From: Calothrix sp. FI2-JRJ7
GTDB taxonomy: Bacteria; Cyanobacteriota; Cyanobacteriia; Cyanobacteriales; Nostocaceae
Length of the DNA: 64,000 bases
NCBI GenBank assembly: GCA_019359675.1
Contig: JAHHGX010000065.1
Coordinates: 62,001-126,000, forward strand
Reading direction: 5' to 3'
The notes under the pieces: model-generated
Told to the model about the DNA's origin: nothing
Databases searched by the model: none
The model's input: the letters and a program-made list of their open reading frames with translations, nothing else
Part shown: piece after piece, positions 1-64,000 of the stretch
Position numbering within the stretch: the first letter of the stretch is position 1
How the letters are laid out: every line of letters starts with the position of its first letter
Program-made: the position numbers and the translations under genes

Positions 1-349
1 GTTCGCTAACCCAACTTTCAATAACATTATCAGTTTGCGCGCGTTCGTTACAAAGTTCCGTAAAATCACTATATAGTTCTTTCCCCAAAGACTCAACGTC
101 AAAAATTAGCTTTGCATCTTGTAGAGATTTAAACTGATGACAAGTACTAGTCGCAAACCTTCCTAACCAAGTTCTGTCAGCTAAAAGAGTATGATTCAAT
201 GTACCATGAATCGAATCAAAAAAAGCTCCAAGATTGCGGCGCCGTTCTTCCGGAGTTAGTGATGCCACAAGTTCGTAAATTTGATTATTGACCCACGTAT
301 TATATTGTGCCATCAAGCGAAACTGTTTAATATGAGTAGATTCTGCCAT
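1..349 (-). CDS. DinB/DfrB-like four-helix protein, 3' end outside window
   Basis: The reading frame runs from an ATG at 349 leftwards through the window edge without a stop, giving 116 codons of an incomplete protein. The N-terminal part carries AQYNTWVNNQIYELV, followed by GAFFDSIHGTLNHTLLADRTW and a WLGRF-type segment, which is the pattern of the DinB family (COG2318). These are four-helix-bundle proteins, several of which bind a metal through histidines or act as thiol-dependent transferases. The His in SIHGTLNH fits the first metal ligand; the later ligands lie beyond the edge. The family call is from sequence pattern; the substrate is unknown. Confidence 0.8.
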   Translation of the reverse strand, partial: MAESTHIKQFRLMAQYNTWVNNQIYELVASLTPEERRRNLGAFFDSIHGTLNHTLLADRTWLGRFATSTCHQFKSLQDAKLIFDVESLGKELYSDFTELCNERAQTDNVIESWVSE

Positions 350-767
350 AACTCACCTATCTTCATCTAATTAAGATAAATACATCTCTTGTGGAATGGG
401 CATCCCTGCCCGTTCCATCTTATAAAATACTAATAAAAATAATTATCTTACCACAGAGACATAGACTATAAAAATCCCCTTGAAACACCTTAAGTAGTTG
501 TTTGTTCTTCCAAAGTCAAAGTTGTAATGGCTGCATTTACAAAATTAATTTAGTTAATCAGCTGTGTAACAGTTGAATATTATCTTTGAAAAAGCAAGAA
601 ATGCTCAATATCTAGCACCAAAACAACTGTCTGCTAATTGCTCCGTTGCTGTTAGCACAGTCAAACCTATAATATTCACATCCTAGTAAAAGCACGCGGT
701 GTACATAAATATTGTAATATAGTCTCCTGTTGAAGTTACAATAGAGTTGTAGTTAGGTAAGCTCTCG
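350..767. other. intergenic region with dispersed hairpin
   Basis: No coding frame of substance is visible. It contains a hairpin at 393-416 (GGAATGGGCA pairing with TGCCCGTTCC) preceded by CTCTTGTGG, a member of the CCACAAGAG-linked hairpin family found at several other places in the window, and a CACAGAGACATAG stretch near 451 that belongs to another dispersed repeat. The rest is AT-rich leader for xisH. Confidence 0.6.
393..416. repeat. dispersed hairpin (GGGCA/TGCCC type)
   Basis: Ten-base arms GGAATGGGCA and TGCCCGTTCC, with one G-T wobble, flank a four-base loop. CTCTTGTGG lies just upstream, matching the CCACAAGAG tail of the other family members on the opposite strand. Confidence 0.6.
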
Positions 768-1183
768 ATGGCAGCTAGAGATCTTTTCCATGAGGCTGTA
801 AAAGCAGCTCTTCAAAAAGAGCAATGGATTATTACAGGCGACCCCTTGAAATTAGATGTAGGTGGCACTAAGCTAGAAATTGACCTTGGGGCTGAACGTT
901 TATTAGCAGCCGAACGTCAAGGTGAGAAAATCGCGGTTGAAATAAAATCTTTCCTGGGTGACTCACCTTTAACTGACTATCACGCAGCGCTAGGACAATT
1001 CTTGAACATGGACTCGCCTTAGAAATTCATGAGCCTGACCGCATTCTCTATCTAGCTATTCCTCTAACTGTATATGATGCTTTTTTCCAACGTGAATTTG
1101 CCCAACTATCAGTGGAACGTTATCAAATAAAACGTATTGTCTATGACCCAATTAATGAGGTGATTACTCAATGGATAAATTAG
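768..1183 (+). pseudogene. xisH: xisH, broken by a one-base frameshift
   Basis: XisH is named as an excision controlling factor of the fdxN element of heterocystous cyanobacteria, but XisH/XisI pairs are widespread and usually not next to any element. The first 80 codons give a canonical XisH with AARDLFHEAVKAAL, IDLGAERLLAAE and VEIKSF, a PD-(D/E)xK-like core (Asp39, Glu58, Lys60). After FLN (about 1005) the frame falls into a stop at 1020-1022, while the expected C-terminus (GLALEIHEPDRILYLAI to VITQWIN) continues in another frame to a stop at 1181-1183. The span is 416 nt, exactly one base short of 138 codons plus stop, which is about the family's usual length. The end overlaps the xisI start by 13 nt. 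It is either a real inactivating deletion or a sequencing error. Confidence 0.85.
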
Positions 1184-1506
1184 AGCGATATCGAGCAATG
1201 GTTCAAAAAGTTTTGACAGAATATGCTTCTGTTCCTGTTGCGTCGGGCGAAATTGATTCTCAACTTATCTTTGACAAAGAACGTGACCGTTATCAAGTTG
1301 TAAGCGTTGGTTGGGTAGGACACCGCCGCGTACATGGCTGTGTTTTACATCTGGACATTATCAATGAAAAAATTTGGATACAGCAGAATACTACCGAACT
1401 ACAAATCGGTCAAGAATTAGTTGCTACTGGAATTCCTAGGGAAGACATTATACTTGGTTTCCAAGCTCCCTATATGCGGCAATACACTGATTTTGGTGTT
1501 GCATAA
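1171..1506 (+). CDS. xisI: XisI family protein
   Basis: This 111-residue protein is full length for the XisI family, with the start MDKLERYR, the central WVGHRRVHGCVLHLDI and the C-terminal LGFQAPYMRQYTDF all typical. XisI is the partner of XisH; the biochemical role of the pair is not settled, and the nuclease-like fold of XisH together with the constant pairing makes a toxin-antitoxin-like or nuclease-partner function plausible (inference). Translation is probably coupled to xisH because the ATG at 1171 lies inside the last codons of the xisH frame. With xisH frameshifted, ribosomes would stop about 150 nt upstream, so expression of xisI may be reduced. Confidence 0.9.
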   Translation: MDKLERYRAMVQKVLTEYASVPVASGEIDSQLIFDKERDRYQVVSVGWVGHRRVHGCVLHLDIINEKIWIQQNTTELQIGQELVATGIPREDIILGFQAPYMRQYTDFGVA

Positions 1507-1588
1507 TAATTAGTATAAATTTTTAGCTTCCCGCGTGGAAGCTGCTGTGTACACACAAGTTTTGTAACGTCGTTTTGTATGATTTTGA

Positions 1589-3114
1589 TCAATTTTCAAT
1601 TTTAACTTGCCAAGTTTGTAAAGTTGTACCAAGAAACAGGTCTAAATTAGTTAAAGCGTTAAGGTATTGAATTGTAGCATCAAGTTCTGCATTTCTTGCT
1701 TGAGCGAGTTCGTTTTGCAATCTAATCAACTGAAAAACTGCATTCCCTCTACCTAGTTTTAATTTTTCCTGTTCAATTTCGAGTTGCTGTTGCGATAATT
1801 GAGTTGCTCGTCTAGCAAGCTCTAGTTGATTATAGCTTAAATTGGTGTTTCGCACTCGGTCTTGTAACTCAATATCTAGTTTTGTTTGTACATTTTTTAA
1901 TGTGTTTTCTGACTTCCGTAACTCAACTTGCGCGCGCTTAAATGCTTGTTCTAAATTTAAATCTCCAAAGGTATGACCAAAAGTTAAACCTAATCTTGCA
2001 TCTACAGCTTCATTTAAATTATTTAGCAAGGTGGCGTTTAAATTTAAATCCCAACGTTTGTTATCTTCCGCTACCATTAAATTTAGTTTAGTTTGATCTA
2101 CACTAAATTGTGCCTGTAAATATCCAGGTTGAGTAGAAAGCGCAATATTTCTCAGTTTCTCAATATCTAAAGTTACGGGTTTGACTGAAGGTATGGTTTC
2201 GGCTTCAATATTTGTATTTTTGTCAATATCTAAAATAGCTAATAATGCTAATCTTTTTGATTCTAAGTCGTTTTGAGCAGATAATAAAGATACTTGACGG
2301 TTAGCTATATCTGTTTGGTTTTGAATAATTTCAACAGGCGCCAGTCTACCTGCTTGAATCAAAGCTTGGTTAATTTCCAGAGAATCTTGAGCATTTTTTA
2401 GTGACAACTGCTCAATTTTGACTCGCTCTTGAGCGGAATTAATTCTCGATAGGCAATAATAGCTTCTGTAATAGTATTATTCAAAGTAGACTTTAAATTT
2501 TCTATATTCACTTTTTCAGTAATTCGTGCTAAATCAATAGAAGCTTGATTAATTCGTGTACCAGCATTCTTTAATAATGGTTGGCTTAATCGAAGTTCCA
2601 TATTTTGACGTAAACTATTATCAGTAATGCTGCTACTAAAATTATTCAGATTCGAGTTTAAATTTGAAGTTTGAGCATCTGCTGTCCAGTTAAAGGTAAC
2701 TTCTGCACCCGTAGGAATTCTCATCACAACTTTGGCGCCGAGATTAGTAGTTAACGAACCGGAACTAATCCCATTTCTACCCAGTTCATTCATATTGACT
2801 GATACAGTAGGAGTAAAATCTGGCGCAAATTTATCTTCTGCAACAGCTAAATCACCTTTCTGAGCAATTCTATCTAAATAAGCATTCTTAATACTTGTAT
2901 TATTCTCAATAACTAGATACACAACATTTGCCAGAGCAAGTTTAAGCTGTGGCTTTTTTGGTACTGATGTTTCTGTAGGCTGAACTGTAGGTTTAATAGG
3001 TACAGTTTCAAAAGTACGTGGGAACTGATTATTCGCTCCGGCGCCTGTCGAATAACCAACCCCAAATAATATAATTACAACTTGTACAAGTCTTGTTTTA
3101 ATTAAATACTCCAT
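1589..3114 (-). pseudogene. TolC-family outer membrane efflux protein, one-base frameshift
   Basis: Two overlapping frames form one TolC/OEP protein: an N-terminal half from 3114 (signal peptide MEYLIKTRLVQVVIILFGVG, then an OEP repeat) and a C-terminal half ending at 1589 (second OEP repeat). The join is at about 2437, where the first frame reads AYRELIPLKSESKL and stops at 2398, while the natural continuation AQERVKIEQLSLKNAQ lies one frame over. One added base would restore about 508 residues. I chose ATG 3114 over the GTG at 3150, since the 12 codons before it (ATDITDVTD) are only a translated copy of the ATCCGTTAC repeat. It is the outer membrane channel of the adaptor-permease set upstream, and probably inactive unless the frameshift is an error. 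Confidence 0.85.
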
Positions 3115-3120
3115 ACATTT

Positions 3121-3147
3121 ATCCGTTACATCCGTTATATCCGTTGC
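3121..3147. repeat. three tandem 9-bp ATCCGTTRY units
   Basis: ATCCGTTAC, ATCCGTTAT and ATCCGTTGC follow each other directly. The same triplet of units recurs at 16771-16797, 24767-24793 and 54532-54549, always within a few bases of a gene end. Here it lies between the stop of the permease (3150) and the likely ATG of the TolC gene. Confidence 0.85.
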
Positions 3148-3149
3148 CA

Positions 3150-4325
3150 CTAACCTTCACGCAAAGCTTTAACAGGGTCAAGTTGCGACGCACGCACAGC
3201 AGGGAAAAAGCAAGCTCCAACACCTACTAATAAAGCAGCACCTAAAGATAAAACTGCTGTTTGAACTTCTAATTGATAAGGAAAACTAAATATTTGAGTA
3301 ACGACTATAGTCACACAATTAACTGATATAATCGCTAACGTTCCCCCAACTAAACTTAAAAGAGCAGCTTCTAAAATAAATTGCAGTAAAATCTCAGATT
3401 TAGTGGCGCCAAGTGCCCTGCGTAAACCAATTTCAGGGGTGCGTTCAATCACAGAAGCGATTGTAATATTCGTAATTCCAACTCCACCAATTAATAATGC
3501 AATAATTCCCACAACATTTAGTCCGCGCGAAGCTAACTCAAAAGTTTGTTTTTGCATTAAAATATCTTGTATATTGCTATAGCCAAAAACTTCGGCGCCA
3601 GGAAAGCGCGACTTTAATAGTTTTTCAGCTTCTTCTTTCAAAGCATCCATATCTTCTTCTTTGCGAGGACGTATCCAAATAGATTGAAAATTTTGGCTAC
3701 CTGTCAATGCACTATATGTGGACATTGGCATCACTAATTGACCTTTTGGTTCTTCACCAAAGCTTTGTTTCGTTTCTACAATTCCAATAACTTGATAAGG
3801 TCTGTCTGAGCTAAAAATTAATTTTCCTAAAGGTTCTTCTCTTTTAAAAAGCTTATCGGAAAGAAATTTATCAATTACTACAACAGGTCGATAATTTTCT
3901 AAATCTGCTGCATTAAAGTATCTTCCTTTAATTAGTCTTCGACCTGTAGCTGGTAAATAATCTTGAGTTACAGCCAGCATCATTGGTTTCCCTTCTTCAC
4001 CTTGATAAAGTACAGAATCAGATAAACCCACAAAGTTAGAAGCACTAATTAGCTGATAATTCTTTAAACGTCGGCGCAGAAATTCTAAATCTTCTAATTT
4101 TGGTTCCCTACCCTCTGATGAATAAACACTAAGGGATACTTGGGGTGCGTCTCGTTTGGCAAGTTGCTGCTTAATTAACGCGCGACTAATATCTCCAACT
4201 TGAAGTGTGGCATTTACTGCTGCTACGCCCATAAATACACCTAAACTAGTTAATGCAGAGCGCACCCAATTTCCTGTTAATGATTTACAGGTAACAATAA
4301 TTAAGTCTTGAGGTGAAAGAGACAT
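3150..4325 (-). CDS. MacB/FtsX-type ABC transporter permease
   Basis: This 391-residue inner membrane protein has a first membrane segment at about residues 20-45, a long periplasmic MacB_PCD-like domain (about 45-250), and three C-terminal segments of the FtsX domain (about 270-385) with the conserved ERTPEIGLRRALGAT loop that contacts the ATPase. It lacks the N-terminal ATPase that MacB carries, so a separate ATP-binding subunit is needed; none is adjacent. It starts 14 nt after the adaptor's stop and ends right where the TolC repeat begins, so the three genes form one transcript. The likely role is export of a lipid, peptide or small molecule driven by periplasmic mechanotransmission; the substrate is unknown. 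Confidence 0.85.
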   Translation of the reverse strand: MSLSPQDLIIVTCKSLTGNWVRSALTSLGVFMGVAAVNATLQVGDISRALIKQQLAKRDAPQVSLSVYSSEGREPKLEDLEFLRRRLKNYQLISASNFVGLSDSVLYQGEEGKPMMLAVTQDYLPATGRRLIKGRYFNAADLENYRPVVVIDKFLSDKLFKREEPLGKLIFSSDRPYQVIGIVETKQSFGEEPKGQLVMPMSTYSALTGSQNFQSIWIRPRKEEDMDALKEEAEKLLKSRFPGAEVFGYSNIQDILMQKQTFELASRGLNVVGIIALLIGGVGITNITIASVIERTPEIGLRRALGATKSEILLQFILEAALLSLVGGTLAIISVNCVTIVVTQIFSFPYQLEVQTAVLSLGAALLVGVGACFFPAVRASQLDPVKALREG

Positions 4326-4339
4326 AAAATTAAAAATTA

Positions 4340-6079
4340 CTATGATTTATCTGGTATTAGCTGTGGTGCTGCATCTGGTGGCGCCTCTTTAACTGCTTTT
4401 CCTGGCTCTAAGGTAGTGTCGGCGCCAGGGAGTATAATTTTGTCACCAGCTTTTAAACCAGATTTAATTTCAACCTTGGTAGTCGCTTCGAGTCCAAGAG
4501 CGACTTTTTGCTTCTGTGCTTTACCTTGTTTATCGCGTATCCAGACAAATGGCTCACCTTCGTCGCGTTGAACAGCTTCTAAATTTACAGCAACAACATT
4601 TTTTCGCTGCTCAACAATAATTTCTACACTGACTTGGCTACCAGGTATTAGAGTACGAGTTGGTTTATCGAGTAGTACAGTTGCCGGAACTTTTGCTTGG
4701 GTTGATGAACCACCACCTAAAGATGCTCCACTTCCACCTTCTCCACTAATTGCTTGGGGTTGCACTTCTTGGACTTTACCCGTATATTCTTGAGAGTTAG
4801 GCCCAATAACTTTTATCTTTGCTGGTTGACCCACCTTGACCTTAGCTGCATCAAGCGTCCCAATTTGTAGATTTACGAGTTCTTGTGATGGGTTGCCCAA
4901 GGTAATTAAAATATCTCCTGATTTAATACCATCACCATTTTTAGCTTTGACATTAAGTATTTTTCCAGTAATTGGCGCCGTAACAAAATTATTTTGAACT
5001 TGCGTCTCTAAATTTTTGCGGTCGAGTGCTAACTTTTGGAGTTCGCTAATTTGAGTTTCAACATCTGACTCAGCATTCCGAACTTCTGCACGCGCGTTTA
5101 AAAGTTTTTCTTGGAGTTCAGTTTGGCGTTTATTTTCAATTTTCAAACGTTGAAATTCCAAGGTTTTAGAATTTAAGTCTGACTGAGCATCTTTCAATGC
5201 TGTTTGTGCCTCTAATACCTTTGTTTGAGGTTCTGTCGCGCGTTTAGCCTCTAAAATTTGACGTTTAAGGTCAATAGTTTTAGTGCGAACATCAAACTCT
5301 GCTTCTCTTACAGTAACTTGTGCATCGCGAACAGATGCTTGTTGTCTTACTAACTCGTCACCGGGAATAAAGCCTTTTTGCGATAAAACTTCTAAATTTT
5401 TTAATTCTCTTTGTTGAACAGCAAGCTTTTCTTTTGTTTCTGTTATTTTCTCACGACTGCGTGTAAGTTCTAACTCTGCTTTTTGGATATCAAATACTTG
5501 TTTCGCTGGAGATAGTGCTTCTTCCTTTGCGGTCGCAAGCTTTTGTCTTGCTTCGATAATTTTTTCGCGACTGCGTGTAAGTTCTAACTCTGCCTTGCGA
5601 ATATCAAATTCTTGTTTAATAGGTTGCCTGAGTTCTTGTTGCACTACCGCTAGTTTATCTTTGGCTTCTGTAACTTTCTCTTGACTGCGTGCGAGAGTTT
5701 GCTTTTGTTTACGAATAGCCAAATCTTGATTTGCAACAGTACTTTGCTGCTCTTTATTGCGGAGAACTAATAATCGTTGTCCAGCTTGGACTGTATCTCC
5801 GACTTTAACTAACACTTTATCTACCGTAACCTCCCCTGGAGACTTCAAGTCTCGTTGTCCTCCGAGTTGCATAGCACCACTTTCATTAATTGTTATTTCG
5901 ATGTCTTCTCGGTCTGCGGTCATTATAGGTAAAGCGACAGCATTTGATGATTTACCGGAATTTTGAATGTAAAACCACCATCCACTACCACCTAGCAAAG
6001 CTAAAAGTCCCGAACCTAAGAGTAATTTCAGTCCGATTTTTAGCCTCTTTTTACTTTTGACAATTTGTGTTGAAGCCAT
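4340..6079 (-). CDS. HlyD/MacA-family periplasmic adaptor (membrane fusion protein)
   Basis: The start ATG at 6079 gives a 579-residue protein beginning MASTQIVKSKKRLKIGLKLLL with one N-terminal membrane anchor (about residues 18-38). A biotinyl-lipoyl half-motif (LVKVGDTVQAGQRLLVL) is followed by an unusually long alpha-helical hairpin of about 260 residues containing several copies of KAELELTRSREKI, then the second lipoyl half (FVTAPITGKIL) and beta-barrel and membrane-proximal domains. An upstream TTG (6094) would add only five residues. It is the first gene of the exporter operon, 71-86 nt from the divergent AraC-type gene. The duplicated coiled-coil heptads make the hairpin longer than in MacA, as expected for reaching across a thick cyanobacterial periplasm (inference). 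Confidence 0.85.
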   Translation of the reverse strand: MASTQIVKSKKRLKIGLKLLLGSGLLALLGGSGWWFYIQNSGKSSNAVALPIMTADREDIEITINESGAMQLGGQRDLKSPGEVTVDKVLVKVGDTVQAGQRLLVLRNKEQQSTVANQDLAIRKQKQTLARSQEKVTEAKDKLAVVQQELRQPIKQEFDIRKAELELTRSREKIIEARQKLATAKEEALSPAKQVFDIQKAELELTRSREKITETKEKLAVQQRELKNLEVLSQKGFIPGDELVRQQASVRDAQVTVREAEFDVRTKTIDLKRQILEAKRATEPQTKVLEAQTALKDAQSDLNSKTLEFQRLKIENKRQTELQEKLLNARAEVRNAESDVETQISELQKLALDRKNLETQVQNNFVTAPITGKILNVKAKNGDGIKSGDILITLGNPSQELVNLQIGTLDAAKVKVGQPAKIKVIGPNSQEYTGKVQEVQPQAISGEGGSGASLGGGSSTQAKVPATVLLDKPTRTLIPGSQVSVEIIVEQRKNVVAVNLEAVQRDEGEPFVWIRDKQGKAQKQKVALGLEATTKVEIKSGLKAGDKIILPGADTTLEPGKAVKEAPPDAAPQLIPDKS

Positions 6080-6165
6080 ATATGGGCTATACAAAATATT
6101 AGTTAGATTTTTCGTATCTATGTAATTTTTCGTAATAATCTAGCATTAGTTGCTTACCGAATACC

Positions 6166-7035
6166 ATGTCCGACGTAAAACCGTCAATAATTGACTTCAA
6201 AAAGCACAACCCTAGCGACTTACTTTTACCCCGTCCTCCTATTCTGTCTACTCATACCGCGCGCTGGGATGGGTTTGTGTTTGAGCATCATTGTCAACCA
6301 GCAGGAGACAGTGATGAAGTTAGTATTATTAACGGACATGCAGTACTAATTTTTACACATAAAAATAAGCGAGTTCATGCCGAACGTAAGCTGGATGGTA
6401 AATTACGCGATGACCCCGTTCAAGAAGGGGATGTAATAATTATTCCTCAAGGAGTTGGGCATGGAGTACGCGCGTATGATGAAGCTGAATTCTTTGCTTT
6501 GGTAATGGCGCCTGCTAACTTTGAATCTCAATTAACACCTCATTTCGCCACTTCTGACCCACTGCTGTACCAAATAGGATTAGCAATGAAAACAGTGTTA
6601 ACTTCAGATTTGACAGGAAGTCGTTTATATGCCGAGACAATGGTCAATGCAGTAACAGTTCACTTAATGCAACACTATGCAACTAAAAAGCCTATCGTAC
6701 ATAACTACAAAAGTGGTTTATCACCAAGTCAGCTAAAATTAGTAATCGAGTATATAAATGAGCATCTAGACCAAGATTTAAGTTTAAACGAACTCAGCGC
6801 ACTAACACAAATAAGCCCACATTACTTCTCACAACTTTTCAAACAAGCAACAGGTGTACCACCACATAAATATGTAATTAGCTGTCGAGTCACCCGCGCG
6901 AAAGAGCTATTGCAAAAAGGTGAGTCTATATCTCAAGTTGCCCAGCAAGTAGGTTTCGCAAACCAAAGCCATTTGAACTTACATATGAAGCGACAGCTTG
7001 GCGCCACACCCAAGCAAATATTGAAAAATCGGTAG
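6166..7035 (+). CDS. AraC-family transcriptional regulator
   Basis: 289 residues. The N-terminal half (about 20-140) is a cupin-like sensor with IIPQGVGHGV, and the C-terminal half (about 190-289) is a standard AraC double helix-turn-helix: LSLNELSALTQISPHYFSQLF, ATGVPPHKY and QVAQQVGFANQSHLNLHMKR. It diverges from the exporter operon across a short spacer, the usual arrangement for a local regulator, so control of the adaptor-permease-TolC operon is likely but inferred. The ligand is unknown. Confidence 0.88.
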   Translation: MSDVKPSIIDFKKHNPSDLLLPRPPILSTHTARWDGFVFEHHCQPAGDSDEVSIINGHAVLIFTHKNKRVHAERKLDGKLRDDPVQEGDVIIIPQGVGHGVRAYDEAEFFALVMAPANFESQLTPHFATSDPLLYQIGLAMKTVLTSDLTGSRLYAETMVNAVTVHLMQHYATKKPIVHNYKSGLSPSQLKLVIEYINEHLDQDLSLNELSALTQISPHYFSQLFKQATGVPPHKYVISCRVTRAKELLQKGESISQVAQQVGFANQSHLNLHMKRQLGATPKQILKNR

Positions 7036-7085
7036 AACTTACAAAAAATCGGAAAAATTTAGAAGACATACTGCCTTTACTAAAT

Positions 7086-7139
7086 GTAGGTTGGGTGTAA
7101 GCAAAGCTTTCCCGAAGGGTAGCGTAGCGCAACCCAACA
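7086..7139. repeat. GTAGGTTGGGT...ACCCAAC dispersed repeat
   Basis: The arms GGTTGGGT and ACCCAAC enclose a variable centre containing AAGCTTTCCCGAAGGGTAGCG. Relatives occur at 16721-16752 and 25962-25993. It lies just upstream of the gene starting at 7153. Confidence 0.65.
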
Positions 7140-7152
7140 AAAACTAACCTTT

Positions 7153-7980
7153 ATGAAACAAGAAAAATCATTACCATCAGAAATCTTTTATTCATTATTT
7201 TCGCTAGTAAAACCTCGTAAAGCTCAAAATACTATAACCACTTCTAACGAATGGGAATCACATATATTACCTCACAGTCCCATTGAAGAACTGGCGCCAA
7301 ACCTCTGGCACGTTACAGGTATTTTACCAGCTAGCGGACACCCACCAAGGGAAATGATACTTTATAAACTACCCGATTCTACATTATTAATTCATAGCGG
7401 CATTGTATTAGATGAAGCCACAATGACGCAACTAGAATCATTAGGTACACCCAAAATAATGATAGTACCTAACCGCATTCATCGACTCGACGCGCGCGTA
7501 TTCAAACAGCGCTACCCTGAATTAATAGTAGTTGCTCCCGCTGCTGCCATACCTTACGTTGAGCAAGTCGTTCCAGTAGATGCAACCGCAGAAGAATTTT
7601 TACCTCAATACGGTATAGTTTGTCATCAACCAATTGGCATTCGTCCCCAAGAATTAGCATATGAATTACAACTACCAACAGGGAAAGCATTAATTTTTAC
7701 AGATATCTTATTCAATTTAACCGAGTCTTATTTAGATAAATATGCACCCGAAAGTAAATTGCCTGTAGGTATACTAGGCGCCAGTGGTTTCTTTGGTATT
7801 ACCAGATTAGGAAAAATGTTTTACATGACCGGTAGAAATGCCTATCGCCAGTGGCTAGAATCTTTGGCAGATAATATTACAGATTTACAAGTAATCTCAG
7901 TTGCACACGGTGAACCAATTGTGGCTAATTGTACCCAAAAATTACATGAAGCAGCCGCAAGATTAAACACTCATAAATAA
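7153..7980 (+). CDS. DUF4336-like, metallo-beta-lactamase-fold-related protein
   Basis: 275 residues. The core runs LAPNLWHVTGI, REMILYKLPDSTLLIHSG, GTPKIMIVPNRIHRLDARVFKQRYPELIVVAP, then TGKALIFTDILFN and VISVAHGEPI. This is the layout of DUF4336 proteins, which look like metallo-beta-lactamase folds but lack the HxHxDH motif; a few ligand candidates remain (His in RIHRLD, Asp in FTDIL, His in AHGEP). The function is unknown. It stands alone, convergent with the Uma2 gene, with a strong inverted repeat between them. Confidence 0.7.
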   Translation: MKQEKSLPSEIFYSLFSLVKPRKAQNTITTSNEWESHILPHSPIEELAPNLWHVTGILPASGHPPREMILYKLPDSTLLIHSGIVLDEATMTQLESLGTPKIMIVPNRIHRLDARVFKQRYPELIVVAPAAAIPYVEQVVPVDATAEEFLPQYGIVCHQPIGIRPQELAYELQLPTGKALIFTDILFNLTESYLDKYAPESKLPVGILGASGFFGITRLGKMFYMTGRNAYRQWLESLADNITDLQVISVAHGEPIVANCTQKLHEAAARLNTHK

Positions 7981-7987
7981 AAATCTT

Positions 7988-8055
7988 CTCTTGTGGAGCG
8001 GGCATCCCGAACCGCCCACTGATATAGGACGGGCAGGATGCCCATCCCACAAGAG
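7988..8055. repeat. inverted repeat between convergent genes
   Basis: The outer arms CTCTTGTGG (7988-7996) and CCACAAGAG (8047-8055) are perfect complements, and inner GGGCATCCCG and CGGGCAGGATGCCC form further stems. Lying between two gene ends it could act as a bidirectional terminator. It is a member of the hairpin family with a CCACAAGAT-like tail. Confidence 0.7.
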
Positions 8056-8061
8056 AAATAG

Positions 8062-8799
8062 CTACAATGTATCTGGGTCTATACCCATTTCTCTTAACTT
8101 TTGCGCCAGTGCTTGCGCGCGTTGGTCAGATAGAGATGCGCGTTGTTCAGCATCTTGCGCGCGTTGTTCGGCAACTTGCGCGCGCTCATCACCAGTAGGC
8201 AAAACAGTACCATCTTGATAACACCAGCGTAACCAAGTATCCTGCCTACCTTCAAATTGTCCATCCCAGAGGGTAACGCCTAATTTTACTTGATCAAGCC
8301 AAGTGTCTGAAGTCTCGAAATAGCGCATTGCTCTAAGTTCGTAAATATATAACTCTTTATCTCCTAATTGTTTTGTTGGGTCATACACTATGTAGTAACT
8401 TACCCGCATTCGCTGATAGATTTTCAGCTTTTCCCCTAGTTCGTCACCTTCTTTGTTAGAAACTATTTCAATTGCTACTTCTGGGGGTTTACCAAACTTC
8501 CACACCATGTAGCAACGATTTTGCTTTTCCCACCAATTCGTTGGTACTTGCACATCTAAGCTAAGAAAGACATCGGGTACTATAGGAGGTTTTGAGTCTG
8601 CATAATAAATACCGACATTAGCTGAGGCTAAAAATATTTGATTTTGTAAAGAGCTATAAGACGAACCAACTAACAAGCGTTGTTGGACAGATGCAAAGTT
8701 ATCCACTGGTGTATCATCTTCAGTAACTAGCTGGTTGGCATCTGGTACGTAGGAGCAATCATCTTGTATTAAAAGTTGCTCAACCATGATTTTATCCAT
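8062..8799 (-). CDS. Uma2 family (DUF820) PD-(D/E)xK nuclease-like protein
   Basis: 245 residues. The central part holds PDVFLSLDVQVP and PPEVAIEIVSNKEGDELGEKLKIYQRM, the family pattern with a predicted restriction-like active site (Asp in PDV, Glu in AIEIVS, Lys in SNK). The C-terminus is a heptad-rich, repetitive coiled coil (about 205-240) built from AEQRAQ units. Uma2 genes are present in dozens of copies in many cyanobacteria and their role is not established. The ATG at 8787 is an alternative start. Confidence 0.85.
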   Translation of the reverse strand: MDKIMVEQLLIQDDCSYVPDANQLVTEDDTPVDNFASVQQRLLVGSSYSSLQNQIFLASANVGIYYADSKPPIVPDVFLSLDVQVPTNWWEKQNRCYMVWKFGKPPEVAIEIVSNKEGDELGEKLKIYQRMRVSYYIVYDPTKQLGDKELYIYELRAMRYFETSDTWLDQVKLGVTLWDGQFEGRQDTWLRWCYQDGTVLPTGDERAQVAEQRAQDAEQRASLSDQRAQALAQKLREMGIDPDTL

Positions 8800-9038
8800 A
8801 ATTCAAGAGCGCTACTTCAATATATAACACTTAAATTTGAGTAGAACACGATTCAATTATACGCTAAAATAGTCAAGGTTTTGCTTTGATCTGGTTGGTA
8901 ATGTGTGATTGAATATGCTTTGTACCCAAATTATTGAAGAATGGGAAGAGAAATTAGGCGCCAGCCTTAACTTGATGAGAATGTTACTAATTAATATTTT
9001 TGCAGAAGCTTTGCTTTGTCGTGGTATACATATAACTA

Positions 9039-9257
9039 TCACAGATTTTCGTACACTTCATCATCGTTACGCTTTCCAATACGAAAAACCTCTATTTCAT
9101 TTTCTGAAATAGTATAAAGGATACGATACTCACCTTGGTCAAGTCTATATAAGCCTTGATGTCCTTTGAGTTGCTTACAATCTTGAGGTCTTGGTTCTTC
9201 AGCTGAAAGCAAAATTTTGCCTATAATCTGCTTAAAAAACTTTGGTTGTAAATCGTG
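9039..9257 (-). pseudogene. RelE/ParE-type toxin relic, 5' end lost
   Basis: Reading leftwards from about 9257, the frame encodes LQPKFFKQIIGKILLSAEE, then RPQDCKQLKGHQGLYRL, GEYRILYTI and VFRIGKRND, ending at a TGA (9039-9041). This is the C-terminal three quarters of a RelE-family toxin, with the usual KLKG...YR...YRI.Y...V..IGKR pattern. An in-frame TAA at 9258-9260 precedes it and no start codon is available, so the N-terminal strand is gone. No antitoxin gene is visible next to it. Confidence 0.7.
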
Positions 9258-9292
9258 TTAAATATTTTTTTAAATAAATTATACTTACTAAA

Positions 9293-11122
9293 TCACGCAA
9301 ATTTATTTAAAGCTTCTTGAGCCATTTTGCTAACTATTGAACTGTTATCTTGTAAGCATCGATTTAACGCTTCTATTGCCTTTGGGTTTCTTAAATTACC
9401 TAAAGCCAGCACAACGCAAGCGCGAACATTTGGATTTTCATCATTTAGTACTTGAAGTAAAGCATCTACTACCCTTTCATCATTAATTTTTTCTAAAGCT
9501 TGAACTGCTTCCATGCGTACACGTACATTAATATCTTGCAAAGTACCTATTAGAGGTTCAATTGACTTCACATCTTGTCTTTCTCCAAGAGAACGAACGG
9601 CTGCTTTGCGTAAGAGAGCATCCTCATCAGATAACGCCAAGATAAGCATGTCAACTACCATTACATCAGGTATTTTAGTTAGTGCGGACAAAGTATCACA
9701 ACGAATTCGACGCTCTGAATCTTGAAGCAACTGAGTTAATATACTAATTAATTGAGGGTGCTTTCGTCTTAAAAATGTTTTAACTGCAATCTCAATTGTT
9801 TGATAAGATTCTTGCCAATAACTTCTGTTTGCTTGTAAGATATCTTCTCTAGCTGTCAAAACTTCAAGTAGAGCATTTGTTGTTCTATCGTCTTCAATTT
9901 TACTTAACGCTTCAATCAAACAGACTCTGACACGTTGGAAACTAAAAGCGTCTCTAAGATTTCGACCTTGGCTATGTAAAATTTCAATCAAAGGTTCTAT
10001 CGCTCTAGCATCAGCAAAATCTCCTAACGCCTCCGCAATGGCGCCGCAAGCTGTAGATTGGTTCTCAATTTTTAACGCCTCAATTAAAGGTTCAATTGCT
10101 TTTATATCTTTTAATTGAGCAAGTGCCCTTGCCGCAGCTACTCGCACAAAAAAGTCTGAATCCTGCAAACACTGGATTATTTGGTCAACAACTCTCACAT
10201 CACCTAATTTAGTTAAGGCATCAATTGCATTTACCCGTACCTCACTAGAATTATGATTAAGTGCTTGTAAAAGTGGTTCAATAGCCCTTTTATCTCCCAA
10301 CTCACCTAGCTTTTTCGCTGCTAAAGCATGACCAGCCCCATCATGAATCATATTTTGTAATGCAATAACAAGCGGTTGGGCGCCAGCTTCTTCAAATAAA
10401 CCTGAATTTGCAAGGTTTTCTAAAGTATTAGCAGCCATTACTTGTTGAATTCTGGCATCACTGTTTAAAGGGTCTGCATTCAATGCCTGAGTCAGCTGCT
10501 CTAAAGCATCCGGTTCTGAAACATTTATTTGGCTAGCAACTGTTGGAGGATAAGGGTCATAAGCTTGATTTGATGTAACTTGTTCAGTTCCTCGATAATT
10601 ATACTTACGTTGAATCTTAATAACTCTCTGTTCGTCTTCTTTTAAATATCCTTCTTCGTCAATGTAATAGGCGCCTGTCTCATAACACTCTGCTGCTGCT
10701 AAAAATAAGTCCGTAAGGTTATCCCAACGAATTTCTTCAATGCCACACTCTGGGTCAATATGCCAAACAGGGGCTGTTTCTTCTCCCACAGTAATTGCAT
10801 ACCTATAATCGCCATTCCCGTCTAATATCGGCAACCAATGAGGATTCCACCGCTCCCAGCTTAACCAACTTTGGTAATTTGTTAAAACTTCTTTTAAAGG
10901 GAAAAAATTATCATAAAAAGGAATTATATAGCCAAAACTATTACACCCGTTGTGCCATTCGTAAAACTCATACAGTTCTTGTGTAAGTTGAAATTGAAAA
11001 TCTTTAACAATCTCATTAATTTCTGCGCGCGTTAGTCCTGGCTGTAAGCCCAAAGCGAATTTTGGGTCATTTCTCACAATCCAAGTTTCTATCCGATTAA
11101 GTGCGTCTGTTAAGGGTGACAT
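9293..11122 (-). CDS. SUKH (SMI1/KNR4) domain fused to HEAT repeats
   Basis: 609 residues. The first 150 form a SMI1/KNR4-type SUKH domain (LTRAEINEIVKDF, ELYEFYEWHNGCN, AVWHIDPE and a tryptophan-rich core). Residues about 225-609 are ten or more HEAT/PBS-lyase-type repeats (DKRAIEPLLQALN, DVRVVDQIIQCLQD, NPKAIEALNRCLQD). SUKH domains are known as immunity proteins against nuclease toxins in polymorphic toxin systems, and HEAT arrays bind proteins. The gene lies 59 nt after a barstar-like gene on the same strand, itself preceded by a barnase-like RNase, so an immunity or accessory role for this protein is a reasonable inference. Confidence 0.85.
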   Translation of the reverse strand: MSPLTDALNRIETWIVRNDPKFALGLQPGLTRAEINEIVKDFQFQLTQELYEFYEWHNGCNSFGYIIPFYDNFFPLKEVLTNYQSWLSWERWNPHWLPILDGNGDYRYAITVGEETAPVWHIDPECGIEEIRWDNLTDLFLAAAECYETGAYYIDEEGYLKEDEQRVIKIQRKYNYRGTEQVTSNQAYDPYPPTVASQINVSEPDALEQLTQALNADPLNSDARIQQVMAANTLENLANSGLFEEAGAQPLVIALQNMIHDGAGHALAAKKLGELGDKRAIEPLLQALNHNSSEVRVNAIDALTKLGDVRVVDQIIQCLQDSDFFVRVAAARALAQLKDIKAIEPLIEALKIENQSTACGAIAEALGDFADARAIEPLIEILHSQGRNLRDAFSFQRVRVCLIEALSKIEDDRTTNALLEVLTAREDILQANRSYWQESYQTIEIAVKTFLRRKHPQLISILTQLLQDSERRIRCDTLSALTKIPDVMVVDMLILALSDEDALLRKAAVRSLGERQDVKSIEPLIGTLQDINVRVRMEAVQALEKINDERVVDALLQVLNDENPNVRACVVLALGNLRNPKAIEALNRCLQDNSSIVSKMAQEALNKFA

Positions 11123-11181
11123 ACAAGGGTATAGGTATATATATGTTATATACTTCCCCTTATTGGCACCAAAATTTACAC

Positions 11182-11583
11182 TTAATTTAGTAGAAAAACA
11201 TTTAGTGGTATGTTTTTTGCTTGCCAGTATTCTTCAGCTGCACGCAAAATATCCAGTGCTGTTTGCCAACCAGTAGGGTCAGCTTGTGCAAATATATCCG
11301 GACGTTCGTATATTAAAACATATTTTTCAGCAGGATACCATGTTAAATCAGTAATACATTCCTCGAAAGCATCCCAGTTGGCGCCAAAATATGAAGGAAA
11401 GTTCATTGCCATAGCAACTTTTCCCAAAAAAGTTTCTTTATTATAAATATCTTTACCATCAAGGTAAAAAACTTGAATCCCTTGTCCAGACAAAGCTTCA
11501 ATAACTTTTTCTACTGTTGGTTGTCGGTTAGCTGCAACCTCTGGTTTAGGTTGAGATGTCATAAAAGCTACGTGTTGGTTCAT
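11182..11583 (-). CDS. barstar-family ribonuclease inhibitor
   Basis: 133 residues, of which about 35-133 form a barstar domain: IQVFYLDGKDIYNKETFLGK, then FPSYFGANWDAFEECI and YVLIYERPD. The segment YFGANWDAFEEC aligns with the barnase-binding helix of barstar (YGENLDALWDC); Asp71 matches barstar Asp35 and Glu75 replaces the critical Asp39. The N-terminal 30 residues are an extension. Its start lies 27 nt behind the stop of the barnase-like gene, which strongly supports a toxin-inhibitor pair. Confidence 0.88.
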   Translation of the reverse strand: MNQHVAFMTSQPKPEVAANRQPTVEKVIEALSGQGIQVFYLDGKDIYNKETFLGKVAMAMNFPSYFGANWDAFEECITDLTWYPAEKYVLIYERPDIFAQADPTGWQTALDILRAAEEYWQAKNIPLNVFLLN

Positions 11584-11610
11584 TTAAAGATCCCTTTTAT
11601 TTAAACTGAT

Positions 11611-11889
11611 TCAAATAATTTCTTGAAAACTATTGTAATGGTCAGGCGTATAATATAGTTCTGCATTATTCCCAGTTATAAGGCGCCGACTACCTCTATC
11701 AGCCACGCCTGGGGTATCGACTGTATACTCTCGGTAATATCCTGAAGATTGTATGGGTAATAATCCTTCGCGGTTTTTAAATTCAGTGCCATCTTTAGGG
11801 TAGGTGAACGGCCCACCTTTCGCTACTAAGTTAACAGTCGTTTGAACTTCAGGAGGTAATTGACTGATGCCAACCTGTGATATACCCAT
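11611..11889 (-). CDS. barnase/RNase N1-T1-like ribonuclease domain protein
   Basis: 92 residues, essentially a bare microbial RNase domain: PPEVQTTVNLVAKGGPF, FKNREGLLP, YYREYTV, RGSRRLITG and YYTPDHYNSF. The residues that catalyse RNA cleavage in barnase are all present by alignment: Glu54 (barnase Glu73), Arg68/69 (Arg83 region), His84 (His102) and Arg40 in NREG. Secreted barnases carry a signal peptide; this one has none, so it would act in the cytosol or be released by a non-Sec route. Transcribed first in the cassette RNase, barstar, SUKH-HEAT. Confidence 0.85.
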   Translation of the reverse strand: MGISQVGISQLPPEVQTTVNLVAKGGPFTYPKDGTEFKNREGLLPIQSSGYYREYTVDTPGVADRGSRRLITGNNAELYYTPDHYNSFQEII

Positions 11890-12357
11890 AATTTATTTTA
11901 TCTCTTCTGACACAGCCCTGGCTGTTTTTCATGATATTTAGATAAAAAGTACTACCCGTTGCTTGTAAATAGATAAGATGCCACTATTCTAAGTGGCATA
12001 TGTAAAAATATCTTTTTATATTACTCTCGCTTTTTTCGTCTTACAAAGTTTGATGAGTTAGCATCAACTCCAAAACTCTTTTCTCTGCGCCTCTGCGTCT
12101 CTGTGGTAAAAATAAGCTATGTTATATCTTGCACATCTACGTATAAAGAATTAATTAAATATTTATATGTTTTTAATATTACTTTAATCCTTAGTCCATT
12201 TTAATGGATTTAATCTATTAGCCTATAGCTTGCAGCTATAGGCAGGTATGGGCGTAATTACATAATTAGTAAATAATATTACATGGAAGAATGCAGCATA
12301 AGATGTAAACCATAGCACAATTAAAATGCACAGGCGAGACGCCTGTGCCACAACCTG
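11890..12357. other. intergenic region with three dispersed repeats
   Basis: No gene is seen. It holds the CTCTGCG...CTCTGTGGTAAAAATAA repeat at about 12082-12115, a perfect 9-bp palindromic hairpin CCTATAGCT/AGCTATAGG at 12222-12242, and a GCACAGGCG/CGCCTGTGC hairpin at 12328-12348 directly behind the hemN stop. The promoter of the RNase-barstar cassette should lie in the right half of the first 150 bases. Confidence 0.6.
12328..12348. repeat. GCACAGGCG/CGCCTGTGC hairpin behind hemN
   Basis: A perfect nine-base stem with a three-base loop, followed by CCACAACCTG and starting 10 nt beyond the hemN stop (12358). The same hairpin with a slightly different stem is found behind gltB at 26966-26986. 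It could serve as a transcription end or mRNA 3' stabiliser. Confidence 0.7.
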
Positions 12358-13740: not shown

Positions 13741-13770
13741 TTTATTAGTTACAAGGTAATGGGAACAAGA

Positions 13771-13860
13771 AACCTAACCCCCCAACCCCCTTCCCTACCA
13801 GGGAAGGGGGAGCAAATATACTCCCCTCCCCTCGTAGGGGAGGGGTTGGGGGAGAGGTTT
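13771..13860. repeat. large GC-rich inverted repeat between ho and hemN
   Basis: AACCTAACCCCCCAACCCCC at the left pairs with GGGGTTGGGGGAGAGGTT at the right, with an inner CCCTTCCC/GGGAAGGGG stem. It fills the spacer inside the heme oxygenase-hemN transcription unit and may cause partial termination or processing. Such C-rich/G-rich hairpins are dispersed repeats in many filamentous cyanobacteria. Confidence 0.75.
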
Positions 13861-13864
13861 TTAA

Positions 13865-14581: not shown

Positions 14582-14866
14582 GTTAAATACCTTAATAATT
14601 CTGATGCATTGCTAGAAACGCCAAGAACTTACACGAGTATTCCTAAATGAACGTGAGCGGAGAGTGTAGAGAGAGATAGTCTGTATCATGGCGCCTGACC
14701 ATTGACACAGATTCCAGCCATTGCTTAGTTTTACCAAAAATTTTAAGATATTTCTACATGCATAAACAAGCAACTATTCATATAGCTATTCATAAATATT
14801 TACATACATTGAATAGCAGGCACGATTGCTATACTGAGAATACAATTCCTTATTACCAATCTTACA

Positions 14867-15133: not shown

Positions 15134-15192
15134 GCTACCAGATTATTATCCAGCCAACCGCCTTTCAAGAAATCGAAGACTCGTATCGTTGG

Positions 15193-15447: not shown

Positions 15448-15547
15448 TCATTAAATCAATTTTAAAATTTATTTGACAAATTATAGAAATAAAGAATTGA
15501 ATATGATTAGATGGCTATGTGGCAATCAATCATAGTGAAGGTTTTAT

Positions 15548-16639: not shown

Positions 16640-16720
16640 GGATAGGCGCCTGTAATTAGTTATATTTAGAATTCTCTGCGTAAATTTTCTTTTATATTAT
16701 TATTGCTTAGTATATTTATG

Positions 16721-16752
16721 ATGTTGGGTTCCGCTTGCGCTCCACCCAACCT
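16721..16752. repeat. TTGGGTT...ACCCAAC dispersed repeat
   Basis: GTTGGGTTCCGCTTGCGCTC leads into CACCCAACCTAC, a hairpin with TTGGGT and ACCCAA arms. Same family as 7086-7139 and 25962-25993. Confidence 0.7.
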
Positions 16753-16770
16753 ACATAAATTATATAAACC

Positions 16771-19310: not shown

Positions 19311-19312
19311 AT

Positions 19313-54554: not shown

Positions 54555-55187
54555 TTATTTTTGGGCAAATGTTCCGGTAAGGCAGGCTTTATCTAGGTTG
54601 GCGCCGTTTAGATTGGTGCCTTCTAGTTCGGCACAAAGTAAGTTGGCGCCAGTTAGGTTGGCTCCTGCTAGGTTTGCTCCACGCAGGTCTGCTTCTTCGA
54701 GGTTGGCTTCATTTAAATTGGCGCCTTGTAAATCTGCACGGCTTACGTCTGCACCTTTTAGGTTGGCGCCTGTAAGGTTTACACCGCGCAAATCTGCACC
54801 ACGTAGGTCTACTCCTTGTAAGTTGACGTTCATCAGGTTGGCGCCACTTAGAAATGCACCTGCAAGTGATACATCAGTGAGTCTAGCACTCATTAAATTT
54901 GCACCGCGTAAATTGCTACCACGCAAGTCAGCACCTGTTAAATCGGCTTGCATTAAATTGGCGCCCATTAAGTTTGCCCGTAAGTCGGTTTGCTTGAGGT
55001 TGGCGCCCATTAAATTTGCTCCCTCTAAGTGCCCACCTTCAAGTTTAGAATTTTGAAAGTTAACTCCTACTAAGGTGGCGCCCATTAAAGAAATGCGCGT
55101 TAAATCTAGATTAGATAAATCCTCGTCTTCTAAATCACTACCTGCAACATTTTTGAGTGTGCCGTTACGAATTGCTTCTATATTCAT
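54555..55187 (-). CDS. pentapeptide-repeat protein
   Basis: 210 residues, nearly all A(N/D)LXX repeats from about residue 25 to the end (for example GANLMGANLKQTDLRANLMG), which fold as a right-handed quadrilateral beta-helix. No enzymatic site is visible; some family members mimic DNA and protect gyrase, but this cannot be read from sequence alone. The gene has at least eight GGCGCC hexamers, as the GAN codons GGC GCC AAC provide them. It starts seven bases from the stop of the DICT gene on the same strand. Confidence 0.9.
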   Translation of the reverse strand: MNIEAIRNGTLKNVAGSDLEDEDLSNLDLTRISLMGATLVGVNFQNSKLEGGHLEGANLMGANLKQTDLRANLMGANLMQADLTGADLRGSNLRGANLMSARLTDVSLAGAFLSGANLMNVNLQGVDLRGADLRGVNLTGANLKGADVSRADLQGANLNEANLEEADLRGANLAGANLTGANLLCAELEGTNLNGANLDKACLTGTFAQK

Positions 55188-61991: not shown

Positions 61992-61999
61992 ATTACGAA

Positions 62000-62749
62000 A
62001 TGCACACCATCCTTCGGCTTGAACAGGTTAGCTTGAATGCAAAACTAAATGTTAATACTAAAGAGAATCTGCCAGGATACTCTATTCTTAAGGATATTTC
62101 ATTTGAGGTACCTACAGGCGCCCGCGTTGCAATTGTTGGGGCAACTGGTGCAGGTAAGACATTTTTACTACGTTTATTAAATCGTTTAAGTGAACCAACT
62201 AGCGGTAAGATTTATTTTGATCATCAAGATTATTCTCTAATACCTGTACAAAAGTTACGTTCTGAGATTGTATTGGTACCCCAAGAGTCGAGGTTATTGG
62301 GTATGACGGTAAAAGATGCTTTGTCTTACCCTTTGGTTTTGCGTGGTTTACCCAAAACTGAAATCACTCAACGTGTAAGTCAGTGGGTTGAATTGTTACA
62401 AATACCTGATGATTGGTTGGGAAGAGGTGAGGTACAACTTTCTTACGGTCAAAGGCAGTTGGTTGCGATTGCACGCGCTTTGGCTATTCAACCCAAAGTT
62501 TTATTGCTCGATGAACCAACTTCTAACCTTGATGTTGGTACTACACAAAGATTATTACAAACGTTTAAAAAGCTAGTAGATACAACTGTTTTAATCGTTA
62601 ATCATCAACTCGATATTGCTTCGAGTTGTGACAACGTTATTCATCTATCACAAGGGCGCCTGATCTCAAATCAACGCGCTTGCGATATAAACTGGGAACT
62701 ACTAAAAGCATCTATTATTCAAGCCGAAGCTGAAGATGATTTTATTTAA
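62000..62749 (+). CDS. ABC transporter ATP-binding protein
   Basis: 249 residues, full ATPase domain: Walker A GATGAGKT (47-54), Q-loop VPQESRLLGM, signature LSYGQRQ (147-153), Walker B LLLDEP (168-173) and H-loop IVNHQLD. Similar to stand-alone exporter or iron-type subunits (FetA/YbbL-like). There is no permease next to it. The FtsX-type permease at 3150-4325 also lacks an ATPase, but the two genes are 58 kb apart and any link is speculative. Confidence 0.9.
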   Translation: MHTILRLEQVSLNAKLNVNTKENLPGYSILKDISFEVPTGARVAIVGATGAGKTFLLRLLNRLSEPTSGKIYFDHQDYSLIPVQKLRSEIVLVPQESRLLGMTVKDALSYPLVLRGLPKTEITQRVSQWVELLQIPDDWLGRGEVQLSYGQRQLVAIARALAIQPKVLLLDEPTSNLDVGTTQRLLQTFKKLVDTTVLIVNHQLDIASSCDNVIHLSQGRLISNQRACDINWELLKASIIQAEAEDDFI

Positions 62750-62771
62750 GAAAGTAGTTTATTTTAATTTA

Positions 62772-63578
62772 TTACCTGGGTACACTTACTGTTGATGCTT
62801 GGACTGGGAAAGAGCGCTCTTTTGCTACTTTGGAGTGCGAATTCGTCAAACTCGTATTCAATAATTCCATATTAAATCTATACCCTACGTTGCGGATTGT
62901 TTGAATTAAACTTGGCTGACGTGGGTCGAGTTCAACTTTTTTCCTCAGTGATAATACGTGTGTGTCAATGGTGCGGGGATTGTCGATGGCATCGGGCCAT
63001 GCACGACGTAGTAATTCAGAGCGACTTAGTGGTACACCGCTAGCTTGTGCTAGAACATACAGCAAGCTAAACTCTTGGGGTGTTAAGTCAATGAATTCCC
63101 CCTGAAACCGAACTCGACGCTGGACTAAATCGATTTGCAGTGACCCGTAGTCTAAATATGCAGGCGCCACAGGAGTGCGCTTGCGACGAATCAAAGCTTC
63201 GGTGCGTGCAAGAAATTCTTGCATTCCAAACGGTTTGGATAAGTAATCATCGGCGCCGGCTTTAAGACCTGCGACAACATCACCTTCAGCACTACGGGCA
63301 GAAAGCATTAGAATTAACGGTTGCTGCTGACGAGTTAGCCAGCGACAAAATTCCATACCATCACCATCAGATAAATCAGCATCGAGAATAATTAGCGTTG
63401 GCTGGTGACTGAGAAAAACTTCTCTAGCCTGATAAATACTCGCAGCTTGATGCACTCGATAGTCAAGCTGTTGCAAATGCCAACCTAGCAAAGACCTCAA
63501 GTGCGGATTCCCCTCAACAATTTCGATACATACCGAACCCACAGTGGCAAGACCCCTAGCGCGTCTATAGAGTTTCAA
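62772..63578 (-). CDS. OmpR/PhoB-family response regulator
   Basis: 268 residues: receiver domain (about 16-130) with phospho-acceptor Asp66 in LIILDADLSDGDG, Ser93 and Lys115 (LSKPF), and a C-terminal winged helix (about 145-245; LTPQEFSLLYVLAQA and RTIDTHVLSLRKKVELDPRQP). The usual Asp-Asp acidic pair near the start of the receiver reads Glu22-Gly23 in IVEGN, which should weaken Mg binding, so phosphorylation may be atypical. No kinase gene is adjacent. Confidence 0.9.
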   Translation of the reverse strand: MKLYRRARGLATVGSVCIEIVEGNPHLRSLLGWHLQQLDYRVHQAASIYQAREVFLSHQPTLIILDADLSDGDGMEFCRWLTRQQQPLILMLSARSAEGDVVAGLKAGADDYLSKPFGMQEFLARTEALIRRKRTPVAPAYLDYGSLQIDLVQRRVRFQGEFIDLTPQEFSLLYVLAQASGVPLSRSELLRRAWPDAIDNPRTIDTHVLSLRKKVELDPRQPSLIQTIRNVGYRFNMELLNTSLTNSHSKVAKERSFPVQASTVSVPR

Positions 63579-64000
63579 GGTATCAAAGCCTTGTATAAAG
63601 GTTTTGTAACCGTTGTTACTTCAGTTGTAAATTATTCAATAATAACTGCCTAAAATTAGCGTTGAGTTATGTATCAATCCCTTGCCGACACAGGGATTTA
63701 TCCCAATTGTTAAATTTTTGTGACACCAGCACGCTCATTCTCGGCTCTTGTGGGTGAAATTGGACAATTATGACTCAATATGGCGCAGCGAACGTTGTTT
63801 TTAACACCAAAGCTTACGCATTTAGCACCTGGATACATATCAACCACGTTAACCGCCCAGAAAAAAAGTTACAATTATTCCATAATATTATCGATGCAAG
63901 AAACGATTTTCCATGCATAATAATAAAAATAACTTTGCACTCATGTCTGTTCCCATACTTCTGGAATAGGATGGGAATAGACTGTAGCTTATGGTAAGTG
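63579..64000. other. right-edge region without a recognised gene
   Basis: A 75-codon frame at 63770-63997 begins MTQYGAANVVFNTKAYAF but has no family features and ends in AT-rich chance-like sequence; I do not call it. The left part is the leader of the response regulator. Confidence 0.4.

Follow-up and report, generated by a model that had tools for sequence, protein, structure and literature searches.

Introduction

The octamer HIP1 (GCGATCGC), a highly iterated palindrome (HIP), is the usual iterated repeat of cyanobacteria. The present analysis concerns another palindrome, the hexamer GGCGCC, in a stretch of 64,000 nucleotides (nt) from the filamentous cyanobacterium Calothrix sp. FI2-JRJ7 (JAHHGX010000065.1, 62,001–126,000), referred to as the window. 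Elhai (2015, PMC4390886) described GGCGCC as an alternate HIP of Calothrix PCC 7103 and Calothrix D253; in PCC 7103, according to that study, GATC occurs at 16% of its expected frequency, and the genome encodes two GRCGYC methyltransferases and a potential GATC endonuclease. The model put forward is that GmeC-directed mismatch repair fixes mutations creating such sites, and exceptional HIPs are argued there to be sporadic and not to occur in clades. Among the papers listed in searches of open-licence literature, none described GGCGCC as a HIP after that study.

Within the BsaHI/HgiDI/HindVP group of GRCGYC restriction–modification (R-M) systems, the base methylated by M.BsaHI is the central C of GRCGYC, the methyltransferases of the BsaHI group carry Arg eleven and Gly or Ala nine residues before the TL motif, and the HindVP protein of H. 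influenzae, which lacks an ExK motif, was found to be inactive for that reason (PMC2413257). GRCGYC methylation is listed for H. influenzae Rd in PMC8565308, and a literature search on HindV found nothing.

Results

The window contained 116 copies of GGCGCC, with starts from 238 to 63252, corresponding to one per 552 bases; 104 were located inside open reading frames (ORFs) of at least 100 codons and 12 outside. A previous reading of the window from its sequence only had counted about 115 copies, roughly one per 550 bases, with no HIP1 and about four copies expected by chance at about 40% G+C. The recount agreed, giving no copy of HIP1, a G+C content of 39.7% and expectations of 3.9 (base composition), 6.5 (first-order Markov) and 5.6 (second-order Markov). 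In the whole genome (8,663,394 bases in 91 contigs; G000), 14,889 copies of GGCGCC were counted against 31 of HIP1 (51 for the reversed HIP1 control). The claim that GGCGCC replaces HIP1 was thus upheld genome-wide, and neither a GGCGCC count near the Markov expectation nor abundant HIP1 elsewhere in the genome, the two outcomes that the sequence-only reading had named as contrary to it, was obtained. Two features of an alternate HIP in the sense of Elhai (2015), over-representation of the word and a low number of HIP1 (31 copies in 8.66 Mb), were found, and the octamer GCGATCGC itself was not iterated.

When the motif was masked in a second-order model of 464 kb including the window, 803 copies stood against 19 expected, a 43-fold excess, and the next palindromic hexamer, CGCGCG, reached 4.3-fold. 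A maximal-order Markov expectation (59 copies; observed/expected ratio (O/E) of 1.96 in the window) was dropped because the motif inflates its own sub-words. The spacing of the copies in the window was near random (coefficient of variation of 0.93). The flanks, which the sequence-only reading had proposed to inspect, showed only an avoidance of G at position -1 (0.10), and a longer consensus around the hexamer was rejected as they had no further preference.

The distribution of the word was examined in 60 genomes. Seven, counting the present one, belong to the genus, a further 29 to the same family and the remaining 24 to different families. The congeners were Calothrix PCC 7103 (G324), PCC 7716 (G321) and NIES-4105 (G322), Dulcicalothrix desertica PCC 7102 (G323), the metagenome-assembled genome (MAG) C42_A2020_038 (G320) and HK-06 (G325). 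GGCGCC totals were 7,475–20,380 in all seven genomes of the genus, 3–530 in the 29 others of the family and 2–2,493 in the 24 of other families, whereas HIP1 totals were 31–163, 535–7,721 and 134–10,167, respectively. The density of GGCGCC in the genus was about 1,150–1,720 per Mb, or one per 550–900 bases. Gene order in a 20-kb part of the window was kept in all six congeners (in HK-06 across two contigs), and PCC 7103 was 94% identical over the aligned window. The window copies kept among those aligned were 97/109 in PCC 7102, 82/106 in PCC 7103, 65/80 in HK-06, 97/110 in PCC 7716, 66/96 in NIES-4105 and 39/90 in the MAG. The replacement of HIP1 by GGCGCC is genus-wide, through 18% nucleotide divergence.

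In a wider survey of 320 genomes of the order, drawn without congeners, no GGCGCC count reached that of this genome. One genome, G059, exceeded it per Mb (9,489 copies in 3.8 Mb), with a reversed control that was also high (2,450), a pattern that could come from a G+C-rich genome. Moderately high counts were observed in family f9 (3,403 in G170 with a control of 13, and 2,493 in G008 with a control of 38), and raised counts also in G037, G060 and G193 of the same family, which had few CCGCGG, as well as in G059 and G116. These seven genomes are perhaps independent, weaker cases of an alternate HIP.

The possibility that base composition, codon usage or Gly-Ala protein sequence makes the excess, with nothing acting on the word itself, was evaluated in a 598-kb sample of the genome (the window, L024–L043 and L194–L200). 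The 385 stop-to-stop ORFs of this sample contained 849 copies of GGCGCC, whereas 30 synonymous shuffles of the same proteins gave a mean of about 51 and a maximum of 60, so that the excess acts on DNA and not on protein, as the sequence-only reading had held. Its description of the codon contexts as arbitrary did not stand, as 61 of the 104 ORF copies in the window were in phase 0 (Gly-Ala). In the 385 ORFs, phases 0, 1 and 2 held 452, 162 and 235 copies, and 452 of 857 Gly-Ala pairs were written GGCGCC; yet these copies were 22, 10 and 16 times over the synonymous shuffle, respectively. Gly-Ala positions take GGCGCC most easily, although the excess acts on DNA. A protein-level contribution was also visible in a pentapeptide-repeat gene (54555–55187, minus strand; Pfam PF00805), the densest cluster of the window with 8 copies (54600, 54645, 54720, 54765, 54840, 54960, 55002 and 55077), mostly at multiples of 15 bases, where the protein repeat adds to the count. 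The ceiling reached by the shuffles, the density of 1.23 copies per kb even outside ORFs and the excess over the motif-masked model refute this explanation, the chances of which are practically negligible.

Copies were also found inside conserved genes, such as the gltB-type gene with glutamate synthase domains (26997–31709, minus strand; Pfam), which held 12 copies from 27357 to 31151. The names gltB, rpsG, fusA and tuf given by the sequence-only reading were correct according to Pfam. It had further pointed to a near absence of GGCGCC from two AT-rich spacers, 22944–23791 (G+C 0.27) and 31710–32448 (G+C 0.32). The two together indeed had no copy; however, at a non-ORF density of 0.87 per kb zero copies have a probability of about 0.25, so the absence is not significant, says nothing, and was rejected as evidence.

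Other palindromes were also unevenly represented. CGCGCG, the second over-represented palindrome, had 229 copies in the 598-kb sample, mostly within ORFs. The words GTGCAC, GTCGAC, GCATGC, GAGCTC, CGTACG and CCATGG were absent from the 464 kb, which resembles restriction avoidance. CCGCGG, the reversed control for GGCGCC, occurred only 8 times in the genome. An Eco29kI-family endonuclease gene adjoined an m5C methyltransferase gene at L009:1462–3345 (contig C61), and CCGCGG is presumably the target of this family. The near absence of CCGCGG fits such a pair, and this word is therefore no neutral control.

The m5C methyltransferase family had nine matches in this genome. Two of them, P0002 (L006) and P0001 (L005), were short enzymes of the BsaHI group, 61% identical to each other, with the m5C and TL motifs and the residues of the group (R221/G223 in P0002 and R211/A213 in P0001; places counted by the NNN-x10-TL spacing of PMC2413257). 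Based on homology, the neighbouring gene in relatives and the motif residues, both are predicted to be able to methylate the word, their predicted target being GRCGYC, including GGCGCC. The sequence-only reading had expected a different methyltransferase to accompany the different palindrome, and an orphan m5C enzyme with a fitting predicted specificity was found. GGCGCC is very probably an alternate HIP linked to a methyltransferase. Searches of plasmids (among the matches listed) and phages with the methyltransferase gave nothing on specificity.

Orthologues of P0002 were present in all six congeners (81–98% identical) and formed one clade with a support of 100/99 in a tree that left out 12 of 41 loci failing the motif filter. 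A RuBisCO-like gene (Pfam) on one side and a gene of 153 amino acids (aa) on the other recurred in six of the seven loci, HK-06 excepted, so the chromosomal enzyme was probably inherited vertically. HK-06 had two contig-end fragments 93–97% identical to P0002. With weaker m5C matches in the genus and relatives set aside, an enzyme of a second kind (about 59–63% identity) was found among the matches listed in this genome, PCC 7716, NIES-4105, PCC 7103 and, in part, HK-06; among the same matches, which extend well below those scores, none was found in the MAG or PCC 7102, which suggests that the genus can do without a second copy. Plasmid copies of this kind, again among the matches listed, were two in NIES-4105 and one, in two pieces, in PCC 7716, which also has a copy on the chromosome.

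In relatives with enzymes 63–69% identical, an RE_HindVP endonuclease gene was located directly upstream of the methyltransferase in all five that were scanned. The family search of the 60 genomes revealed no HindVP endonuclease in the seven of the genus, so no complete BsaHI/HindVP R-M system was found there. HindVP was detected in six of the 53 other genomes, all six with a methyltransferase 62–69% identical and with 3–88 copies of GGCGCC; it was interrupted in two of them (two pieces in G340, two stops in G270). In G327, a 68% identical methyltransferase fragment had a stop. Of five HindVP proteins examined from relatives, most carried the motifs WGKNQF, ExK and SPERRFD, and all five had EIK at a like place; any cutting by them is putative. 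As GGCGCC is also scarce in relatives that lack the enzyme, the low counts in relatives prove nothing. The search for a relative of known structure found none for HindVP.

A trace of the lost gene was identified in the MAG C42_A2020_038 (L078), where about 20 codons of the endonuclease end (...RNPEIFDEFLKNI-stop) lay directly before the methyltransferase; the matching end in Rivularia (L083) reads ...SNPEIFDETLKDI-stop. This fossil is convincing by its place and not by its score. The upstream RE_HindVP in relatives together with the L078 fossil indicates that the orphan very likely derives from a HindVP/BsaHI-type system. In a MAG of Rivularia, a second HindVP fossil end (L084:4906–4965; E 5e-4) preceded an orphan methyltransferase.

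The GATC tetranucleotide had an O/E of 0.09–0.24 in samples of all seven genomes of the genus (42–598 kb each) and of 0.52–0.80 in samples of seven relatives (15–80 kb each). A D12 methyltransferase gene beside a DpnII-family endonuclease gene, a DpnII-type pair, was found in this genome, and GATC restriction by such a pair is a plausible cause of the loss of HIP1. Other words matching GRCGYC were rare in the genus samples, with an O/E of 0.00–0.15 for GACGTC and 0.16–0.44 for GACGCC.

The turnover of GGCGCC was followed in an alignment of 320 kb at most (318 kb read). Hexamers with indels were set aside, as were sites aligned in fewer than four taxa or, for the loss counts and NNCGNN tests, fewer than all five; the MAG and HK-06, with too few aligned bases, were left out of the gain–loss counts. 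Among 260 sites, 38 had lost the word in exactly one of the four taxa of the ingroup while all four remaining taxa retained it, and 26 of the 38 had become GGTGCC or GGCACC. Lost window copies read in the same way in 6/12 cases in PCC 7102, 13/24 in PCC 7103, 8/15 in HK-06, 8/13 in PCC 7716, 7/30 in NIES-4105 and 12/51 in the MAG. With both strands counted and each CpG cytosine taken as one chance, as in all NNCGNN and trinucleotide controls, the central C of GGCGCC changed to T 27 times and to A or G never in 924 chances, in comparison with 144 and 53 times in 11,180 chances at the remaining NNCGNN (P 5e-4). The C-to-T change was 1.6-fold above the GCG context (P 0.014). Deamination of a methylated central C, the base that M.BsaHI modifies, would be expected to yield GGTGCC/GGCACC, and the C-to-T-biased decay fits a methylation of this base.

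A different explanation is selection for a function of GGCGCC itself, such as a role in organising the chromosome or in recombination, with the methyltransferase secondary or serving it. The persistence of the word across the genus at this divergence would accord with such selection, and so would the lack of central-C transversions and the rarity of G-to-A changes relative to other NNCGNN (2/924 vs. 20/2061 at position 1; 5/924 vs. 49/2691 at position 2). However, when compared with trinucleotide controls, position 2 no longer showed a deficit (9/1468 vs. 15/2481) and the one at position 1 was weak (P 0.054), total change was near that of like hexamers, and the spacing was random. Selection of this kind is considered rather unlikely.

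The decay product GGTGCC is also the substrate that Vsr-type very-short-patch repair would need in order to restore GGCGCC and raise its count. No member of the Vsr family was found in the 60 genomes, including the seven of the genus, whereas the same search found it in 5 of 14 control genomes, and GGTGCC was not depleted (O/E 0.90–1.68 in genus samples). Vsr repair was therefore rejected as the cause and is very improbable; an unrecognised nickase could act in place of Vsr.

Copies were also gained, since in a simple gain–loss model, which assumes no rate differences among sites, the version without gain was worse by 27.6 log units. At fourteen sites GGCGCC was confined to a single ingroup taxon; four of these sites lay within the same repeated block. 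Insertion of GGCGCC as a block was rejected, as multi-base differences between congeners inside a single GGCGCC (14 places) fell mostly in diverged, indel-rich or repeated stretches.

Discussion

An ancestor of the genus may have held a BsaHI/HindVP-type R-M system with the target GRCGYC, including GGCGCC, whose endonuclease gene would have been lost while the methyltransferase was kept as an orphan. GGCGCC would then no longer be cut but would still be methylated at its central C. In the same lineage GATC would have been strongly avoided, removing HIP1, and GGCGCC would have climbed to about one copy per 550–900 bases and persisted through the genus. We infer that a methylation-linked process both adds and maintains the copies; it may be the one proposed by Elhai, in which mismatch repair retains mutations that create GmeC sites. 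The history of R-M decay is quite probable; between methylation-linked repair bias and selection on the word, the former is an even call. The account taken as a whole is moderately probable.

Several observations weigh against this account. At the level of mutation, C-to-T changes in GGCGCC (43/1468) showed no excess over GGCG followed by other bases (10/379), and methylation of GGCGCC in vivo is suggested indirectly, by the C-to-T bias at the central C. The conservation of GGCGCC as a whole did not clearly exceed that of other CpG hexamers rich in G+C (tip change of 0.082 vs. 0.089). Conserved one-off neighbours had 114 strand-counted chances of becoming GGCGCC and none did so, and stationarity was rejected by 44.3 log units, the model preferring net loss over a steady state; a very high back-mutation, as estimated from neighbour counts under a steady state, was dropped for these two reasons. 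At the level of genomes, G303 (Tolypothrix brevis) encodes an enzyme of 69% identity without HindVP, yet has 6,611 HIP1 and 277 GGCGCC, so in a genome with HIP1 the presence of an orphan enzyme is insufficient for a rise of GGCGCC. Low HIP1 alone does not bring GGCGCC either, as indicated by G341, G007 and G018 (HIP1/GGCGCC of 535/326, 134/343 and 206/5, respectively). The L078 fossil has an E value of 0.027 when taken alone, and the DpnII-family search covered this genome, one of the seven.

A further suggestion, made tentatively and with chances somewhat below even, is that GGCGCC took over the role of HIP1, for example as a strand signal in mismatch repair, after the R-M system had decayed to an orphan methyltransferase, the word being set by the resident cytosine methyltransferase and remaining stable over the 18% divergence.

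A genus with a changed word, the enzyme and a lost endonuclease, set beside near relatives that keep HIP1, constitutes a natural experiment tying the word to the methyltransferase and bears on the long-standing question of HIP function; cultured strains exist in PCC 7103, PCC 7716 and PCC 7102.

GGCGCC resembles HIP1 in being a G+C-rich palindrome that recurs at roughly one copy per kb, in coding and spacer DNA alike, and is tied to a cytosine methyltransferase (PMC4390886). It differs from HIP1 in being another word, of six bases, with no flank extension and a methyltransferase of another group. The BsaHI/HgiDI/HindVP group (PMC2413257) is matched in the TL-motif residues of the methyltransferase and in the HindVP motifs of relatives; unlike these R-M systems, the genus has no endonuclease match (0/7) and iterates one of the four target words. 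The closest case is that of Calothrix PCC 7103 and D253 as described by Elhai (PMC4390886), with the same hexamer, near absence of HIP1, GATC depletion, a DpnII-type gene and GRCGYC methyltransferases. In contrast to the two GRCGYC methyltransferases given there for PCC 7103, no full-length second copy was found in the MAG or PCC 7102 among the matches listed. The genus-wide scope, the loss of the endonuclease and the C-to-T decay are new beyond Elhai (2015). Unlike the sporadic occurrence argued for by Elhai, the iteration of GGCGCC is clade-wide here, in seven of seven genomes, which tells against the view taken in 2015 that alternate HIPs do not persist in clades.

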